DNA of 14,456 nucleotides from Streptosporangiaceae bacterium (GTDB taxonomy: Bacteria; Actinomycetota; Actinomycetes; Streptosporangiales; Streptosporangiaceae): positions 1 to 14,456 of the forward strand of contig JASHTQ010000757.1 of NCBI GenBank assembly GCA_030040475.1, read 5' to 3'. A program made the translations under genes and the position numbers. The notes under the pieces are model-generated. The model ran no database searches. It saw only the letters and a program-made list of their open reading frames with translations, and had not been told where the DNA came from. Below, one piece after another: positions 5,429 through 14,456 of this stretch. How positions within the stretch are numbered: position 1 is the first letter of the stretch; the number at the start of each line of letters is the position of its first letter.

Positions 5429-6331
5429 TCAGTGCACGGCCGCCGCCGGCGGGCGCCAGCGCTGCCAGCCGGGGTGCATGGCCACCAGGCGCGAGGGTGC
5501 CGGCGGGACGGCGACCAGCTGCGCACGGGGGGACAGGACAAGCCCGGCGGGAACAGGTTCCCACCACGGCTGGGCACTGAACAACCTGCTGAACATCTCC
5601 GGCGGCTGGGCGCTGGGTCCGAGGACCAGCTCGGCGGGAGCCGGCTGGTCCTGCCCCTGCCAGCGGAAGTCGCCGGAGATGCGCAGCGCCGAGCCCCAGT
5701 TGGGCAGCGCGGCGTGCGGGGTCAGGCAGTGGAAGATGATCGCGTCACCGGGCCGGTAGGTGGTCGTCGCCCAGCCGGGTTCGGATCTGCTCAGCGGCCG
5801 CGGCCGGCCGGGCGGCCCGAGGTGTCCGCCGGGCCGCAGCGCCAGTCCGCCGAGCAGGATCGGGATCTCCATCAGCGGGATCCAGCTCGTCAGCATGTCC
5901 TGGACGCCGGAGACCCCGTAGTCGTAGTGGATGTAGCGGCCGCGCGGGCGTGCCTCGGGACGTTCGGGGTAGACGGCGCGCAGCACCTTGGCCGGGTAGG
6001 AGAACGCCCCCGGCCCGAGGATGCGCCTGACCAGCGTGCGCAGCTCGGGCAGGTACGGGATCCGGTTGAAGGCTGCGCCGAACATCGCCGCGCGGAACGC
6101 CGTGTCGGACAGCGCGTCCATGGAGTTGACCGCGCGCGGCCGGACCGACGGTATGCCCCTGTCGTCGACCCAGCCGCCGGAGCGCAGCCGCTCCAGGACG
6201 ATCTGCCCGGCCGCCCAGATCTCGTCCTCGGGCAGCAGGCCGCGGAAGAACAGGTACCCGTCGGCGGCCAGCCGGCGCCGCAATCCCTCTGGATCGGTCA
6301 CCAGACGGGATGAATCGGACAGTTCCTCCAC
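5429..6331 (-). CDS. PhyH-family Fe(II)/2-oxoglutarate dioxygenase
   Basis: A 300-residue non-haem iron oxygenase of the phytanoyl-CoA dioxygenase superfamily, which couples 2-oxoglutarate decarboxylation to hydroxylation or halogenation of small molecules. The N-terminal DGYLFFRGLLPEDE block is typical. Likely iron ligands are His135 and Asp137 (RYIHYDYGV) and His206 (CLTPHAALPN); Arg217 (SALRIS) would hold 2-oxoglutarate. GGLALRPGGH (about 161-170) is the usual strand between them. Because Asp is present at the HxD site, a hydroxylase is more likely than a halogenase. The start is GTG 6331, 6 nt after a TATCGT -10, implying a leaderless mRNA; GTG 6337 in the same frame is the alternative. 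The Pro-rich C-terminal 60 residues are less typical. It leads a probable two-gene unit with the TPR-like gene. The substrate is unknown. Confidence 0.85.
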   Translation of the reverse strand: MEELSDSSRLVTDPEGLRRRLAADGYLFFRGLLPEDEIWAAGQIVLERLRSGGWVDDRGIPSVRPRAVNSMDALSDTAFRAAMFGAAFNRIPYLPELRTLVRRILGPGAFSYPAKVLRAVYPERPEARPRGRYIHYDYGVSGVQDMLTSWIPLMEIPILLGGLALRPGGHLGPPGRPRPLSRSEPGWATTTYRPGDAIIFHCLTPHAALPNWGSALRISGDFRWQGQDQPAPAELVLGPSAQPPEMFSRLFSAQPWWEPVPAGLVLSPRAQLVAVPPAPSRLVAMHPGWQRWRPPAAAVH

Positions 6332-6337
6332 ACGCAC

Positions 6338-6362
6338 ACGATAAGCGCCGCCGGCCGGCGCT
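6338..6362 (-). promoter_or_regulatory. Leaderless promoter of the PhyH-type gene with a palindrome in its spacer
   Basis: On the minus strand TATCGT (6343 down to 6338) is followed after 6 nt by GTG 6331. Immediately upstream, where the -10/-35 spacer should be, lies AGCGCCG (6344-6350) and its complement CGGCGCT (6356-6362), with a 5-nt centre. This 19-bp near-palindrome would be covered by RNA polymerase. That placement is what one expects of a repressor operator or of a spacer-binding MerR-type activator. No candidate regulator gene is adjacent. Confidence 0.4.
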
Positions 6363-6461
6363 CCGCACAATTCACGGCGAGCTGTCCGGGCGGGACCGGC
6401 CAGGCGAACGGGCGCGCGATCCCGGGCGTGGCGGAGGCCGTGCCCGGGTAGGGGGCGTGAT

Positions 6462-7070
6462 GTGACCAGCTGGCAGGAACTCGCGGACAACGCGGCCTCG
6501 TGCACGCGCTGCGACCTGTACAAGCGGGCGACGCAGACCGTGTTCGGCGAGGGGCCCGTCGACGCCGCGCTGGTGCTTGTCGGCGAGACACCCGGCGACC
6601 AGGAGGACAAGCACGGCCATCCGTTCGTCGGGCCGGCCGGGCGGGTGCTCGACCGGGCGCTTGCCGACAGCGGCATCGCCCGCAAGGACGTGTACCTGAC
6701 CAACGCCGTCAAGCACTTCAAGTGGACCGCGCGCGGGAAGCGCCGGATCCACCAGCGCCCGAACGGCACCGAGATCAAGGCCTGCGAGTTCTGGCTCGAG
6801 GCCGAACTCGGGACGGTCGGGCCGCGGCTCGTGGTGCTGCTCGGCGCGGTCGCCGGCGAGGCGATGTTCGGCTCGCGCTTCCGGGTCGGGGAGCACAAGG
6901 GCAAGGTCGAGGACGCGTCCCTCGGCTCGTGGCACGGGCTGGTGGTCGCCACCATCCACCCGTCGGCCGTGCTGCGCGGCCCGGACGCGGAAAGCCGCGG
7001 CGTCGCCTACGCGGGCCTGGTCGAGGACCTGGTGACGGCGCGCGAGGCGGCCTGCGGCCCGGGCCGCTGA
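6462..7070 (+). CDS. udgX: UdgX-family uracil-DNA glycosylase
   Basis: This cytoplasmic repair enzyme removes uracil from DNA. The UdgX family is known to become covalently trapped on the abasic site through a histidine. The 202 residues show motif GETPGDQEDKHGHPFVGPAG (41-60), the family hallmark KRRIHQRP (93-100) with His97 as the covalent residue, and the distal HPS motif (166-168). Cys14, Cys17 and Cys108 match iron-sulfur ligands of family 4 enzymes. Where family 4 has the KCRPP cysteine, this protein reads VKHFKW, so His85 may be the fourth ligand (inference). GTG 6462 is the start, with TAGGGGG upstream as a weak ribosome site. The gene stands alone, divergent from the PhyH-type gene and convergent with miniprotein copy B. 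Confidence 0.93.
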   Translation: MTSWQELADNAASCTRCDLYKRATQTVFGEGPVDAALVLVGETPGDQEDKHGHPFVGPAGRVLDRALADSGIARKDVYLTNAVKHFKWTARGKRRIHQRPNGTEIKACEFWLEAELGTVGPRLVVLLGAVAGEAMFGSRFRVGEHKGKVEDASLGSWHGLVVATIHPSAVLRGPDAESRGVAYAGLVEDLVTAREAACGPGR

Positions 7071-7206: not shown

Positions 7207-7404
7207 TCAGCTACTCGGGGAGGGCAAGTGGCACGAGATCTTCGGGTTCACGCCCACGTAGTTGAGCGGACCCGCGGCGACCGTCGCCACGATATCGCCG
7301 GCGTGCGCACAGGTGGTCGAGGAAGAACCGTAGTAGCCGCGCTGGCCCGCCGCAATCGCCCCGATGATCAGCCAGATAAGCAAAATGACCCCGCCGACTC
7401 GCAT
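7207..7404 (-). CDS. 65-residue single-pass membrane miniprotein (copy B)
   Basis: Paralogue of the miniprotein at 334-531 with the same length and layout: hydrophobic helix at 5-19 (GVILLIWLIIGAIAA), GQRGYY (20-25), Cys32, AGPLNYVG (44-51), Cys58 and a Pro/Ser tail. The invariant spacing of the two cysteines suggests a structural disulfide on the outer side of the membrane (inference). ATG 7404 is chosen over the longer frame at 7437 because CGGAGG lies about 7 nt before it. It is flanked by udgX (convergent) and by the anti-sigma kinase gene (divergent), neither obviously related. Function is unknown; conservation between the two copies is the main evidence that both are translated. Confidence 0.85.
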   Translation of the reverse strand: MRVGGVILLIWLIIGAIAAGQRGYYGSSSTTCAHAGDIVATVAAGPLNYVGVNPKISCHLPSPSS

Positions 7405-7577
7405 ATCTACCTCCGAAAGACGGGCGGCTCGGGCCACTCGCCGGAGCCGCGGACTCGGGTCGCCCCTTCGTCTACCCCGCTGGCGACGGATACACGTACC
7501 CGACCGGCACCATATGCCGCGGATCCGGCATTCATCCAGACCGGCGGCGCTTTCACGTGCCGTTTCCCGTGCCGGTG

Positions 7578-7583
7578 TAGGGT
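7578..7583 (+). promoter_or_regulatory. -10 element of the anti-sigma kinase gene
   Basis: TAGGGT matches TANNNT and lies 8 nt before ATG 7592, which has no Shine-Dalgarno sequence. This supports a leaderless transcript and helps to choose the start. A clear -35 is not seen. Confidence 0.4.
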
Positions 7584-7591
7584 GGCTGCTG

Positions 7592-8074
7592 ATGGCCCGG
7601 GATGCAAGCCGCGCGCGGCGCCCTCAAGCGCCGGACGAACCCGCCTTTCCGCTGGCCCCCACGCCGGGCCGCGGCAGTCCGCTGTCTCCTCCCGTGCATG
7701 GTGTCATGGCCTTCGTCTACACCACTGACCTGTCGGCGGTCCGCGCCCTGGTGCACAGGCATGCGCTGCGGGCCGGGCTGACCGAATCCCGTGCCATCGA
7801 CCTCATGCTCGCGGTCAGCGAGGTCGCGGCGAACACCGTCAGGCACGCCAAGTCTCCCGGATGCCTCGATATCTGGTACGACACCAGGGAGATCGTCTGC
7901 CAGATCCGCGACAGGGGCACGATCCCGGACCCGCTGGCGGGCCGGCGCCGGCCCGCGCTCGATGCACTGGGCGGTCACGGCCTGTGGATCGTGAACCAGG
8001 TCTGCGACGAGGTCGAGATGCGCTCGGATGAAACGGGTACGACGATCAGGCTGCACATGACGCTATCCCGCTGA
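7592..8074 (+). CDS. RsbW-like anti-sigma factor kinase (HATPase_c_2)
   Basis: A 160-residue GHKL-fold ATP-binding protein of the anti-sigma kinase family. Such proteins hold a sigma factor inactive, or phosphorylate a STAS antagonist to stop it from releasing the sigma factor. Visible ATP-site boxes are the N box LAVSEVAANTVRHA (73-86; Glu77, Asn81), the G1 box RDRGTIPDP (106-114) and the G2 box GGHGLWIVNQVCDEVE (127-142). The first 38 residues are Pro/Arg-rich and lack family similarity. Translation could instead begin at ATG 7706, but no ribosome site supports that, whereas ATG 7592 lies 8 nt after a -10 element. A terminator and then a STAS gene follow, the expected antagonist partner. 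The target sigma factor is not in the window. Standalone proteins of this family are numerous in actinomycetes, so pairing is inferred from position. Confidence 0.87.
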   Translation: MARDASRARRPQAPDEPAFPLAPTPGRGSPLSPPVHGVMAFVYTTDLSAVRALVHRHALRAGLTESRAIDLMLAVSEVAANTVRHAKSPGCLDIWYDTREIVCQIRDRGTIPDPLAGRRRPALDALGGHGLWIVNQVCDEVEMRSDETGTTIRLHMTLSR

Positions 8075-8090
8075 CCAGCCATTCCGGCGT

Positions 8091-8120
8091 CCGTCCGGGG
8101 CGAGTTCCCGGACGGCTTTT
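8091..8120 (+). terminator. Intrinsic terminator between kinase and STAS genes
   Basis: A perfect 9-bp stem, CCGTCCGGG (8091-8099) with CCCGGACGG (8107-8115), has a 7-nt loop and is followed by CTTTT (8116-8120). It begins 17 nt after the kinase stop. It should uncouple, or at least reduce, expression of the STAS gene from the kinase transcript. Confidence 0.75.
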
Positions 8121-8141
8121 GACGTGCTGAGGAGTATCCCG

Positions 8142-8522
8142 TTGCCATCCGCCGTGTGGTACAACAAGTGCGTGGATCTGCTGACGGTCTCTGTGAGGGC
8201 CCGGGAGTCCGCCGGCGAACCGTACACGCTGGTGGAGATCACCGGCGAGGCCGACGTGACCAATACCGACGAGTTGCACCGGCTGCTGGACGAGGAGGTG
8301 TCCGCGCAGCCGCGGACCATGATCATCGACATGTCCGGGCTGCGGTTCATGGACTCCTCCGCGCTGCACGCGCTGCTGCGGGTGAACCGCTCGCTGGACC
8401 GGCAGGGCGGCGTCCTCGCGCTGGTTTCGCCGCAGGCGGCGGTGGCGAAAATTCTCCGTCTCACCACCGCTGACCGGCTCATTCCCGTCTTCGACAGCGT
8501 GGCGGAGGCCGCCGCGGGCTAA
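8142..8522 (+). CDS. STAS-domain anti-sigma factor antagonist
   Basis: A 126-residue SpoIIAA/RsbV-like antagonist. Unphosphorylated, such proteins bind the anti-sigma kinase and free the sigma factor. The STAS core runs from about residue 12 to 120, with VEITGEADVTNTDEL (31-45) and the phosphorylation loop IIDMSGLRFMDSSALHALL (61-79); Ser73 corresponds to the phosphoserine of SpoIIAA, next to Asp71. The start is uncertain. TTG 8142 has AGGAG 7 nt upstream, the best ribosome site; GTG 8172 would begin directly at the domain (VDLLTVSV), and GTG 8124 is the longest frame. The kinase gene upstream and the SpoIIE phosphatase at 12660-14456 supply the two enzymes that would set its phosphorylation state (inference). 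Confidence 0.88.
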   Translation: MPSAVWYNKCVDLLTVSVRARESAGEPYTLVEITGEADVTNTDELHRLLDEEVSAQPRTMIIDMSGLRFMDSSALHALLRVNRSLDRQGGVLALVSPQAAVAKILRLTTADRLIPVFDSVAEAAAG

Positions 8523-8540: not shown

Positions 8541-8568
8541 TTTGCGGACCCCGAACGTGGGATATGCT
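8541..8568 (+). promoter_or_regulatory. Promoter of the glycosyltransferase leader
   Basis: TTTGCG (8541-8546), 16 nt of spacer and TATGCT (8563-8568) form a sigma-70-type promoter with a good TANNNT -10. The 6-nt rule seen at the leaderless genes of this window puts the start of transcription at A8575. That is the first base of the structured leader. Confidence 0.5.
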
Positions 8569-8574
8569 GTCAGC

Positions 8575-8703
8575 AAGTGGTGCCTACGACGCAGGCACGC
8601 TCTACGCGACACGGTGTTTTCGCGGAGCGTGCGGATCGGGTGCCACTTTTTCCGCCTCCTAGGACGAACACCGTGACAGAGGTTCGTCGGCGAGGAGGCC
8701 CTG
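8575..8703 (+). promoter_or_regulatory. Structured 5' leader with ribosome-site-sequestering hairpin
   Basis: Domain 1: AAGTGGTGCC (8575-8584) pairs with GGTGCCACTT (8639-8648), 10 bp with two G-U pairs. It encloses GCACGCTC (8595-8602) with GAGCGTGC (8625-8632) and CGCG (8605-8608) with CGCG (8621-8624). A run of five T (8647-8651) follows. A competing hairpin, GTGCCT (8580-8585) with AGGCAC (8593-8598), would break both helices. Domain 2: GCCTCCT (8654-8660) pairs with AGGAGGC (8693-8699), and inside it GACGAAC (8663-8669) pairs with GTTCGTC (8682-8688). This buries the AGGAGG ribosome site 5 nt before ATG 8704. Alternative folds, a U-run and a masked ribosome site are the design of a riboswitch, attenuator or RNA thermometer. 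It does not match any riboswitch class I can recall, and the ligand is unknown. Confidence 0.6.
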
Positions 8704-10007: not shown

Positions 10008-10199
10008 TACATGTCCGGACAGTCAGAGCCTTTATTTTGCCGAACGGGGAGTGGTATCTGCGCCGCGCCGCCGGCCCGGCCCGCTCGGCTGACGTTCCGG
10101 TGGCATTCCCGGCCCGGGCAAACCATACTAAGAACCTGTCTTTACCGACACCCGACAGAAGTCGTTTTTGCCGGGTATCGGTGGTATTCAGGCGCTTTG

Positions 10200-10205
10200 T
10201 ATCGT
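10200..10205 (+). promoter_or_regulatory. -10 element before the TTG-start membrane protein gene
   Basis: TATCGT matches TANNNT. Six nucleotides later there is an ATG (10212) opening only a five-codon frame, MPCRR, that ends at 10229 and overlaps the proposed TTG start at 10217. Either this promoter makes a leader a few nucleotides long with a mini-ORF, or transcription starts further upstream and GGGGGA (10206-10211) serves as the ribosome site. Confidence 0.35.
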
Positions 10206-10216
10206 GGGGGAATGCC

Positions 10217-11065
10217 TTGCCGACGGTAACTGTCTCGAACGTCGAGAAGCACCAGGACACCGGTACGACTACCACCACGCCGGTGTCATCCTCGAAGGCT
10301 GCCGCTCCGGCCAGCGCCTGGGTGACCGTTCCATCGATGATCGCCGTCCTTGCCGCCATCGTCGGCATGTGGTTCGCGTACAAATACGTGATCAAGCCGA
10401 GCACTATCGGTTTCGCGAAGAACTACGTTCCCTATGCGGGCGTGATAGCCGCCACGGCTGCGCTGGAGCGCTTTCTCGAACCATTGAGCCAGATAGTGAT
10501 GCAAGGCAAGGTGCAGGCCGGCGCGGCGGGAAGCACGCCCGGCGCCGCGGGGACCTCGGGCGCCACCGCCTCTTCCCAGGTCGCCGGCGCTCCGGGGAAG
10601 GCCGCTCCCAGCGCCGCGGGCACCGTCGAGCCCGGACGCCCTCGGCTGGCCAACCCTTTGATGCAGAAGATTCTCCGGCAGGGCCCTGGCGGGCAGACCG
10701 GGGCGAAGAAGACCTTGAAGCAGGAGGCCGCCGAGTCCAAGGCGAGGGCTCAAAAGGCGGCCGCGGACCCGCAGCAGACGGCCGGGGACGTCCAGCCATT
10801 GGTCGATCAGGCTGCCGACGACCAGGCGAGCCTGGACACGCTGCGCACTAACCGGGCAATTCTCTTCTGGGCGATCGCGAGCGTATGCGGGATAGGGATA
10901 TCCGGCGGCTTCGGGCTCTTCCTGCTTCAGACGATCGCGACCAGCCACGTCAATACGTTGCTGGATCTGGCCGTGACCGGGCTGACCATAGGCGCCGGGA
11001 CCAAGCCGACACACGACCTGATCACCAGCCTGCAGGCGAAAGCGAGCGGTTCCTCCTCATCCTGA
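10217..11065 (+). CDS. Membrane protein with Ala/Pro-rich linker, function unknown
   Basis: I do not recognise this 282-residue protein. It has a Thr/Ser-rich N-terminus, a first membrane helix (about 38-58, MIAVLAAIVGMWFAYKYVI), and a short conserved-looking segment VPYAGVIAATAALERFLEPL (71-90). A low-complexity Ala/Gly/Pro/Ser linker (100-140) and a charged stretch with coiled-coil potential (160-210) follow. A second helix (about 214-238, AILFWAIASVCGIGISGGFG) comes next, then a C-terminal motif TGLTIGAGTKPTHDLITSLQ (254-273). The two helices would put the linker and coil on one side of the membrane. TTG 10217 is chosen because GGGGGA lies 5 nt before it; the frame is open up to 10037, and GTG 10181 is an alternative. 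It is flanked by a terminator upstream and by aldehyde dehydrogenase downstream, with no clear functional link. Confidence 0.75.
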   Translation: MPTVTVSNVEKHQDTGTTTTTPVSSSKAAAPASAWVTVPSMIAVLAAIVGMWFAYKYVIKPSTIGFAKNYVPYAGVIAATAALERFLEPLSQIVMQGKVQAGAAGSTPGAAGTSGATASSQVAGAPGKAAPSAAGTVEPGRPRLANPLMQKILRQGPGGQTGAKKTLKQEAAESKARAQKAAADPQQTAGDVQPLVDQAADDQASLDTLRTNRAILFWAIASVCGIGISGGFGLFLLQTIATSHVNTLLDLAVTGLTIGAGTKPTHDLITSLQAKASGSSSS

Positions 11066-12659: not shown

Positions 12660-14456
12660 TCAGCGGATGCGGACGACCACGAGGCAGGCGTCGTCGCCGG
12701 TGTCGGACGCCCTGCTCGCGAGCACGCGATCGGCCCGAGCCGCGGCGGTCAGGTCCGACGCCGGGGACCCGTCGTGGTCCGCGGTCACGTTCGCGACGAA
12801 CTCCGCAAGGACGTCCTCTATGGAGTCACCGCGCCGCTCGATCAGCCCGTCGGTAAACAACAGCAGGCTGTCGCCGGGCTCCAGTGACTGGGTGGATTCC
12901 TCGTATTCCGCGTCCGGGTCCATGCCGAGCAGGACTCCGCCGGGCAGCGGCAGCGTGCGGGCGATGCCGTCGCGGACCAGAACCGGCGGCAGGTGCCCCG
13001 CGCGCGCCCAGCGCAGCAGGCGCGTGCGGGGATCGTAAAGCCCGCACACCACGGTGCCGACAACTCCCGAGGTGAGGTGGCACATGACGCCGTTCAGCAT
13101 GCGGAGCAGCTCGGCCGGGCCTGCCCCGGTGATGGCGAGGCCGCGCAGCGAGTTGCGCGCCGCGACCATCCCGGTCACCGCGTCAATGCCGTGGCCCGCC
13201 ACGTCGCCGACGATGAGCAGCACGTCGTTGCCGGGCAGCAGCAGCGTGTCGTACCAGTCGCCGCCGACGAGCTGGCCCTCTCCGACCGGCCGGTAGCGCA
13301 CGGCGACGTCGATTCCCGCCGCTTCCACCGGCGTCGCGTTGGGCGGCATGATCGCCCGCTGCAGCCGCAGCGCGAGCAGCCGCTCCTCCGCCGCGCGCTG
13401 CTCGCTGTCCGCGAGCTGGTCCTGCGTGGCCTCGAGCGCGACCTGCGTGTGGTAGTGCGACGAGACGTCCTGGAAGGCCCCGCGCAACGCCACCACCAGG
13501 CCCGCGGCGTCAACCACCGGCTCGGCGAAGACCCGGATCTGCCTGATGCCGCGGTCGTCGGGGTGGACGACGCGGAAGGTGGCCGTGGCGGGCTCCTTGT
13601 GCTCGGCCAGGCCCTGGTGGAAGCGCTTCACCGCCGGCTTGTCCACCGCCATCACGTAGCTGTGCAGGTCCGCAAGCGGGATCTCCGTTCCCGGCCGCGG
13701 GTCCAGGCCGAACAGCTCGAACGCCGAAGCCGTCCAGCGGACCGTGCCCGTGACGAGGTTCTCCTCCCAGCCGCCCAGCCTGCCAAGGCGCTGCGCGTGG
13801 TCGAGCAGCGCGGCAAGCTGGCCCGCGGCGGCGTCGCGGCGCCAGGTGACGATCACGCCGTCGAAGAAGCTGGCCGCGCGCAGATCGGCCAGCGGGACGT
13901 ACTCCTCGCCAGGGTCCTGCCGGGTCTCGCCCGCGCCGGTGGTCGACGCCGCCTGGGCCTGCCCGGCCAGGCCGAGGGACCCGCCGAGCGGGCCAGGGAC
14001 GTCCTGCGGGACGCCGCCGGCCAGGACCTGCACCGCCCGGGCGAACAGGCCCTGGCCCGACACGCTGGCCGGGTATGCCTCGATCAGGGTCAGCCCGGTC
14101 AGGTCGGTCCCCGCCCGGCCGGCCGGGTCGCGGTAGCCGGGGCTGACGTGCTCGATGCTGAAGTCGGCCACCTGCCCGCCCGGGTCCCTGATGGCCCGCA
14201 GCACGAGCACCGATTCGGCCAGGTCGTCGAGAAGGGTGAACAGCGCCGCCCTCGGCTGCGCGGCGGCCAGGTCCCCGAGCGCGAGGCGAGCGCCGAGAAT
14301 CCTCGCGCAGCCCGCGGCAAGGGCCGACAGGTGCTGGCGTACCCCGGGGGTGAAGTCTGGGATCGGCTCCGGCCAGGTCACCTCCATCACGCCGCGCAGC
14401 TCGCCGTTCCGCTCGCGCAGCGCGAGCACCGCCCTGGCGCCGCCCGGCGGGCCGGC
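12660..14456 (-). CDS. PAS-domain SpoIIE/PP2C-type serine phosphatase, N-terminus beyond window
   Basis: The frame stays open to the window edge, so the start is missing. What is visible, numbered from the internal Met at 14429: the end of a GAF-like domain (to about 50), a first PAS-like domain (60-195), and a second PAS domain (205-322, with GRLGGWEENLVTGTVRWTAS). A helical linker follows (325-355, ending LRLQRAIMPP), then a SpoIIE phosphatase domain (372-589). Metal-binding aspartates lie in VGGDWYD (Asp391), VGDVAGHGIDA (Asp409), FTDGLIERR and DTGDDACLV. Such phosphatases remove phosphate from STAS antagonists and so activate sigma factors; GAF and PAS domains sense small ligands, light or redox state. 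A STAS gene and an RsbW-like kinase lie at 7592-8522, making a shared pathway possible, but actinomycetes carry many such proteins. No transmembrane segment is visible in this part. Confidence 0.92.
   Translation of the reverse strand, partial: AGPPGGARAVLALRERNGELRGVMEVTWPEPIPDFTPGVRQHLSALAAGCARILGARLALGDLAAAQPRAALFTLLDDLAESVLVLRAIRDPGGQVADFSIEHVSPGYRDPAGRAGTDLTGLTLIEAYPASVSGQGLFARAVQVLAGGVPQDVPGPLGGSLGLAGQAQAASTTGAGETRQDPGEEYVPLADLRAASFFDGVIVTWRRDAAAGQLAALLDHAQRLGRLGGWEENLVTGTVRWTASAFELFGLDPRPGTEIPLADLHSYVMAVDKPAVKRFHQGLAEHKEPATATFRVVHPDDRGIRQIRVFAEPVVDAAGLVVALRGAFQDVSSHYHTQVALEATQDQLADSEQRAAEERLLALRLQRAIMPPNATPVEAAGIDVAVRYRPVGEGQLVGGDWYDTLLLPGNDVLLIVGDVAGHGIDAVTGMVAARNSLRGLAITGAGPAELLRMLNGVMCHLTSGVVGTVVCGLYDPRTRLLRWARAGHLPPVLVRDGIARTLPLPGGVLLGMDPDAEYEESTQSLEPGDSLLLFTDGLIERRGDSIEDVLAEFVANVTADHDGSPASDLTAAARADRVLASRASDTGDDACLVVVRIR

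Follow-up and report, generated by a model that had tools for sequence, protein, structure and literature searches.

What does the 129-nt leader ahead of a GT4 glycosyltransferase gene do, and which of its parts matter? The leader (8575–8703) lies in the window, as we call the whole 14,456-nt stretch of Streptosporangiaceae DNA analysed here. A sequence-only reading, whose sequence and coordinates for the leader proved accurate, had suggested that the leader may be a novel cis-regulatory RNA capable of two or more mutually exclusive folds. This suggestion is supported by compensatory changes in the stems of relatives (P0 pair 4–16, the P2 extension and, by eye, P1) and by the lack of an Rfam match. 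The features discussed below are collected in Table 1.

Table 1. Features of the GT4 leader and gene in the window
Feature	Position	Strand	Sequence or composition	Basis and remarks
Promoter-like pair	8541–8568	+	TTTGCG (8541–8546), 16 nt, TATGCT (8563–8568)	Read from the sequence; transcription start expected at about A8575
Conserved box, P0 hairpin	8580–8598	+	GTGCCT / loop ACGACGC / AGGCAC	Comparative; −9.0 kcal/mol alone
P1, closing stem of the window's branch	8575–8648	+	8575–8584 with 8639–8648	Fold; U-A/C-G exchange in relatives, by eye
P2	8595–8632	+	GCACGCTC (8595–8602) with GAGCGTGC (8625–8632), extended by 8604–8608	Fold and partner-swap test; excludes P0
Five-T run after P1, terminator-like	8647–8651	+		Sequence; shorter, broken or absent in L001, L005 and L006
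Short leader frame	8629–8676	+	GTG CGG ... CCG TGA, MRIGCHFFRLLGRTP	Frame reading; stops 27 nt before GT4
Loop-loop complement	8610–8675	+	CACGGTGTT (8610–8618) with AACACCGTG (8667–8675)	Exact-complement search
GT4 SD hairpin	8654–8699	+	GCCTCCT (8654–8660) with AGGAGGC (8693–8699), inner GACGAAC/GTTCGTC	Fold; weak statistical support
GT4 glycosyltransferase gene, 406 aa	8704–9924	+		ORF; best NCBIfam model MshA (TIGR03449), 160.9 bits against a cut-off of 462.5

The folded leader of the GT4 gene

The leader folds with a minimum free energy of −62.7 kcal/mol, compared with −47.9 (SD 3.8) for 200 dinucleotide shuffles (z −3.87, none of the 200 as low). Both halves behave alike (8575–8652, z −3.47, 1/200 shuffles as good; 8652–8703, z −3.46, 0/200). 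With the whole-leader and both half scores lying far below the shuffles, chance folding is rejected, in agreement with the earlier view that helices of this kind were unlikely to arise by accident.

The predicted fold contains the anticipated 10-bp closing stem from A8575, as well as the inner stem, although the latter comprises 8+5 bp and not the 8+4 bp originally read. The segment GGCAC (8594–8598) can indeed pair with GTGCC at 8580–8584 or at 8640–8644, or join the inner stem. Of the alternatives, it is the 5′ hairpin, here named P0, that forms the conserved core; it had been listed merely as an alternative pairing. Three elements go beyond that reading: the 19-nt box as conserved core, the complementarity of CACGGTGTT to 8667–8675, and the frame GTG...TGA at 8629–8676.

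The element had also been described as standing in register with a promoter. It lies just downstream of a loose promoter-like pair, and a pair of this type precedes the box in 38 of 76 non-redundant relatives (mean 3.6, maximum 11 in 50 rounds with shuffled upstream sequence), but a simple, strict sigma-70 scan of the window found no promoter. As to the gene downstream, MshA is the best NCBIfam model for the GT4 protein, which scores far under the model's cut-off.

The conserved box and the genes behind it

The core of the leader is a 19-nt box, RUGYYUANGAMGMAGRYAC. Scanning genome contigs with the GT4 protein retained 80 loci, including 14 close relatives (L001–L014) with 45–76% identity over most of the protein. 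The box lies upstream in all 14, which were found without using the RNA; in L001 it is cut by the contig end. Where readable, these boxes all fit RTGYCTAYGACGMAGGCAC, and the letters flanking them differ widely.

A search allowing one mismatch matched 18 of 394 class-sample genomes, one exactly and 17 with a mismatch. Eleven of the 17 lie ahead of GT4 and all differ at box position 8; the remaining six lie elsewhere and differ at other box positions. In the order in question, which is that of Trebonia kvetii (L004, G003), the exact pattern TGYCTANGACGMAGGCAC, which itself fixes the box being counted, matched 166 of 345 genomes, with two hits for the reversed control. A GT4 relative is present in 37 of 46 order genomes that have no exact match. 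When up to five mismatches were allowed, 16 of the 30 protein-found loci read in such genomes had a variant box; no box was seen in the other 14, some of which are probably paralogs.

The widened pattern RTGYYTANGAMGMAGRYAC was present in 28 of 28 Streptosporangiales genomes and in 0 of 268 others in a class-level sample of 296 (reversed control, two hits), the 28 being those that the order search also contains, and GT4 stood downstream in all ten places read from this sample. Among 39 further genomes of the order, 37 of them without an exact match, 31 possess the widened box, and GT4 follows closely in 24 of the 25 loci read. Distinct exact matches have GT4 downstream in 82 of 91 cases, about 13 of these loci having originally been fetched by the GT4 protein. 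At almost every place checked, the box is followed by one GT4 glycosyltransferase gene. Entry into the 113-locus set used for the pair counts below required a GT4 match or a place among 11 identifiers listed by hand; its GT4-linked share (105/113) is therefore no guide to the frequency of boxes without GT4.

Partner-switch type genes (STAS, RsbA-like HATPase, SpoIIE, MEDS) are found directly upstream of GT4, in the window at 7364–8522. The gene just upstream encodes a STAS, SpoIIE or MEDS/HATPase protein in eight of the nine loci whose neighbours were examined (the window, L218, L219 and L223–L227; L220 is the one without). Elsewhere in the window, a 321-aa frame between GT4 and an aldehyde dehydrogenase gene (10100–11065) has no NCBIfam match, and the longer frame 10037–11065 has no Pfam match. 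The minus strand carries genes for an HpaB-type hydroxylase (609–2060), a PhyH-type dioxygenase (5429–6955) and a PAS-SpoIIE phosphatase (12660–14429).

Some boxes precede other genes. A glycosyltransferase-9 gene follows the box in G297 and G298 (L191, L222) and probably in G299 (L193), where the leader is of the same type and a 200-aa piece gave no Pfam match. A carbamoyltransferase gene follows in G259 and G258 (L190, L118). In G238 (L189, L221), the box is succeeded by a carbamoyltransferase-like start that is soon interrupted, then by glycosyltransferase-9 and GT4 genes. A second box in L126 and L128 precedes a shorter GT4 paralog, seemingly without part of the usual N-terminal half. L184 and L187 hold box copies with no GT4 behind them, the 162-aa frame of L184 having no Pfam match; these copies are possibly decayed.

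P0 and P2, two helices sharing one strand

P0 is a 6-bp hairpin closed on a 7-nt loop, A-N-G-A-(C/A)-(G/A)-(C/A), in which box position 8 takes all four bases among the 113 loci. Pair 1–19 is GC in 105 of these loci and AC in 8, pair 2–18 UA in 110 and UG in 3, pair 3–17 GC in 107 and GU in 6, pair 5–15 CG in 109 and UG in 4, and pair 6–14 UA in all 113. Pair 4–16 is CG in 90, UG in 15 and UA in 8. The sole pair ever broken is the outermost one (A.C in 8/113). The pattern used for the 113 loci allowed wobble letters, a bias from which the 30 protein-found loci are free, and wobble pairs and double changes are present in loci found by protein rather than by pattern.

In 25 distinct rows, 97.3% of P0 cells are paired, against 95.9% in shuffles (15/500 as high), and the covariation score is 0.220 against 0.182; this formal count is modest because the box hardly varies. 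A separate argument comes from the box GTGTCT-AAGACGC-AGACAC of leaders that we label Nocardiopsidaceae type (this label and "Actinomadura type" are guesses). Pair 4–16 is U-A there and P2 starts at base 17, skipping base 16, so that the exchange supports P0 independently of P2. P0 thus has comparative support as a helix.

P2 is formed by the 3′ arm of P0, together with the lineage-specific bases that follow it, pairing with the downstream Shine–Dalgarno (SD) region. Both helices use AGGCAC and are mutually exclusive. In 45 of 81 leaders, 0–4 nt separate the end of P2 from the GT4 start (GGCACACC pairing with GGUGUGCC-AUG is an example), in a survey where the wrong start codon was chosen for a few leaders, L126 among them. 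Other lineages arrive at the same place with other letters (GCACAACUUC/GGAGUUGUGC, GGCACCUCC/GGAGGUGCC, GGCACGCCCUC/GAGGGUGUGCC), and Actinomadura-type leaders set CCUCC against GGAGG at the same end (GAU-A-CCUCC/GGAGG-AUC). In most short leaders, the SD is contained within one of the two exclusive helices.

Exchanging partners between leaders lends P2 comparative support as a helix as well. In the 76 of 113 leaders left after removal of near-duplicates, own partners score 21.21 and swapped partners 18.34, every swap being re-optimised, and the maximum of 20,000 permutations is 19.61. At position 20, the first extension base, the pair is AU in 28, GC in 13, CG in 7 and GU in 6 of 65. These extension counts draw on 83 of the 113 leaders: 20 were dropped because their gene start had been misplaced, so that nothing remained downstream of it, and 10 more because the best stem did not start at the first two bases of GGCAC. 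A permutation on the 83-leader set is flattered because its strands were preselected as best, and we therefore rely on the 76-leader swap test.

A candidate translation switch, its rivals and known systems

The mutual exclusion of P0 and P2 makes the leader a candidate translation switch. In the first fold, P0 and its conserved loop would form close to the 5′ end; the second, P2, would pair the 3′ arm of P0 and its following bases with the SD region of whichever frame comes first downstream. This second fold, usually the more stable, would hide the start site, presumably the OFF state. P0, forming by itself or held by a putative factor or ligand that reads its loop, would free the SD region and turn expression ON. 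The frame under P2 appears to be GT4 itself in many lineages and, elsewhere, a short leader ORF ending at or over the GT4 start. Taken as a whole, the statement that the GT4 mRNA leader carries an order-wide cis-regulatory RNA whose two exclusive folds act as a translation switch seems to us fairly likely; we are more certain that the box is a cis-acting RNA element of some kind.

The window itself departs from this scheme. Its P2 does not touch the GT4 SD, from which the helix may have moved away in this branch, and where relatives have a conserved helix covering the SD or start codon it has just the weak SD hairpin. The order-wide core does not include the closing stem P1, the U-run or the SD hairpin, all three of which are features of the window's own branch. 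P1 (AGYGG/CCRCU) has U-A as its variable pair in the window, L003–L007, L121, L122 and L127, and C-G in L002, L101, L126 and L128; pairing is found in 13 of 13 rows with partners chosen by eye, the outermost pair being lost in L002, L003 and L006 and a bulge occurring in L121.

P1 and P2 are nested in the window and followed by five T, and for this reason P1, P2 and the U-run look like a terminator that may end transcription in this branch. Termination could even be the branch's main output, with P0 as the antiterminator, a rather unlikely reading that nevertheless survives better than the other rivals. P0 would disrupt both P1 and P2, and stems followed by TTTTTT recur in L009 and L109. Against it, the T run is not retained in L001, L005 and L006 and may in some leaders be just a spacer between the SD and the start codon; a simple terminator scan of the window was negative, but covered loops of 3–8 only.

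The 7+7-bp hairpin that had been proposed over AGGAGG is predicted as AGGAGGC/GCCTCCT, but statistically it is the weakest part of the window's wiring. In 24 leaders, own partners score 21.05 and swapped ones 19.66, with 395 of 20,000 permutations as good, and for the window 20 of 23 swapped partners do as well as its own or better. At so high a GC content, the extent to which the GT4 SD is occluded in the window is unremarkable (p 0.17); across 41 leaders, the SD is unpaired with a probability of 0.19 compared with 0.28 in shuffles, and lies under the control median in 27 of the 41.

The leader frame bridges both structures: it runs across the 5′ arm of the SD hairpin, and its stop codon falls within the hairpin loop. 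A ribosome translating this frame would open the SD hairpin, amounting to a putative coupling. In long leaders, the frame adjoining P2 is often a short ORF that starts with the string D-T-G-C-G, complementary to CGCA of the box and found in 36 of 48 long leaders (18.1 expected from shuffles). The frame opened by the first such string reaches its stop over the GT4 start, or no more than 50 nt ahead of it, in 25 of 36 GT4-linked leaders, compared with 15 and 8 of 36 for the other two frames. The encoded peptides, among those listed, vary in sequence and length. This frame bias supports translational coupling to GT4 as a possible role of the ORF. The P2 loop of the window also contains CACGGTGTT, which matches 8667–8675 as an exact complement (two sites, 0.06 expected); by eye, the match extends to L001 and L002 at 9/9 with wobbles and to L003 at 8/9.

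As to the translation switch proper, P2 is better than P0 by 3.9–8.2 kcal/mol in short leaders folded whole, by 9.2 kcal/mol in the window (L004 falls within the 3.9–9.2 range) and by 11–12 kcal/mol in L010 and L258. In L154, P2 is better by 6.3 kcal/mol in an 85-nt piece, and the P0 fold is the minimum in a 165-nt piece. With P2 the more stable, P0 would need help or kinetics to form. The same advantage of P2 in nearly all folded pieces, along with the lack of a known signal, would suit a constitutive brake or a protective 5′ hairpin that responds to nothing, in which P2 keeps translation low and P0 guards the 5′ end of the mRNA. By itself, however, such a brake leaves unexplained why the P0 loop is kept across lineages while the letters of P2 change, and we regard it as distinctly unlikely.

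We give still less credence to the box as a DNA operator, that is, a near inverted repeat just past the transcription start that binds a dimeric repressor, the RNA folds being by-products. In the window, the 19 bp of the box do form a dyad with one mismatched pair of positions, and the promoter-like pair lies just upstream. Yet the box centre is fixed but asymmetric in most boxes, and position 8 can be any of the four bases; changes in the arms retain G.U pairs in the fashion of an RNA helix, the outer six positions of each arm staying complementary; and the bases after the box track the SD region of each lineage. Least probable of all is a leader-peptide attenuator, in which a short peptide would begin at the box RTG and a ribosome stalled on it would select the fold. 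Box base 1 is A or G only, bases 2–3 are invariably TG, and there are actinobacterial cases in which a conserved motif turned out to be a uORF (PMC10272879). In the RTG frame, however, the third codon positions are nearly invariant and the first and second vary, and the box as a coding peptide is therefore rejected; the 33 short leaders divide 15/13/5 by their frame relative to GT4, with an in-frame stop in four only.

Within the switch reading, we speculate, with little confidence, that P0 is a minimal sensor bound by a sugar nucleotide, a heptose intermediate or an order-specific RNA-binding protein, and that it sets surface glycosylation through outputs rewired by lineage (SD masking, leader-ORF coupling, termination). 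An RNA element present in 28 of 28 sampled genomes of a single soil-bacterial order, tied to one glycosyltransferase family and outside Rfam is an orphan ready for decoding. It also offers a natural series, in which one sensor-like hairpin stays constant and each lineage rewrites the output helix; changes in the output of RNA switches thus become directly readable. The factor, once found, could tie the GT4, glycosyltransferase-9 and carbamoyltransferase genes, as well as the partner-switch regulator genes that often adjoin GT4, to one signal.

An Rfam 15 cmscan gave no match for the window at E up to 1 and none for 13 related loci at E up to 0.5, and a known Rfam family is rejected for the leader, in accord with the novelty claimed earlier. 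Literature searches among open-licence papers listed none on this element. By word look-up, the terms glycosyltransferase, Streptosporang-, Nocardiopsis and Thermobifida are absent from the main texts of the discovery papers PMC11109978, PMC8632094, PMC2864571 and PMC6429828, as are Nonomuraea and Actinomadura from the main text of PMC11109978, the one text in which they were looked up. We judge the box element to be a new orphan cis-regulatory RNA family, whose mechanism we infer.

Some riboswitches and other RNA switches act on translation by letting one of two exclusive hairpins mask the SD. The box element resembles them in that two exclusive helices share a strand and, for most lineages, the SD or start codon lies under one of them; it differs in that its conserved part is a single 19-nt hairpin, below most aptamers in size, with no known ligand. 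The guanidine-II (mini-ykkC) riboswitch consists of two hairpins with ACGR loops. Small size and a conserved loop are common to both, whereas the box element has one hairpin, a 7-nt loop and no Rfam match. Closer in its setting is the ilvB-II motif of Corynebacterium, whose conserved motif, according to PMC10272879, is the uORF itself, rich in branched-chain residues. Both are actinobacterial leader motifs in which a short ORF separates the promoter from the enzyme gene; unlike ilvB-II as described there, the box is non-coding, and its leader ORF is variable both in sequence and in length.
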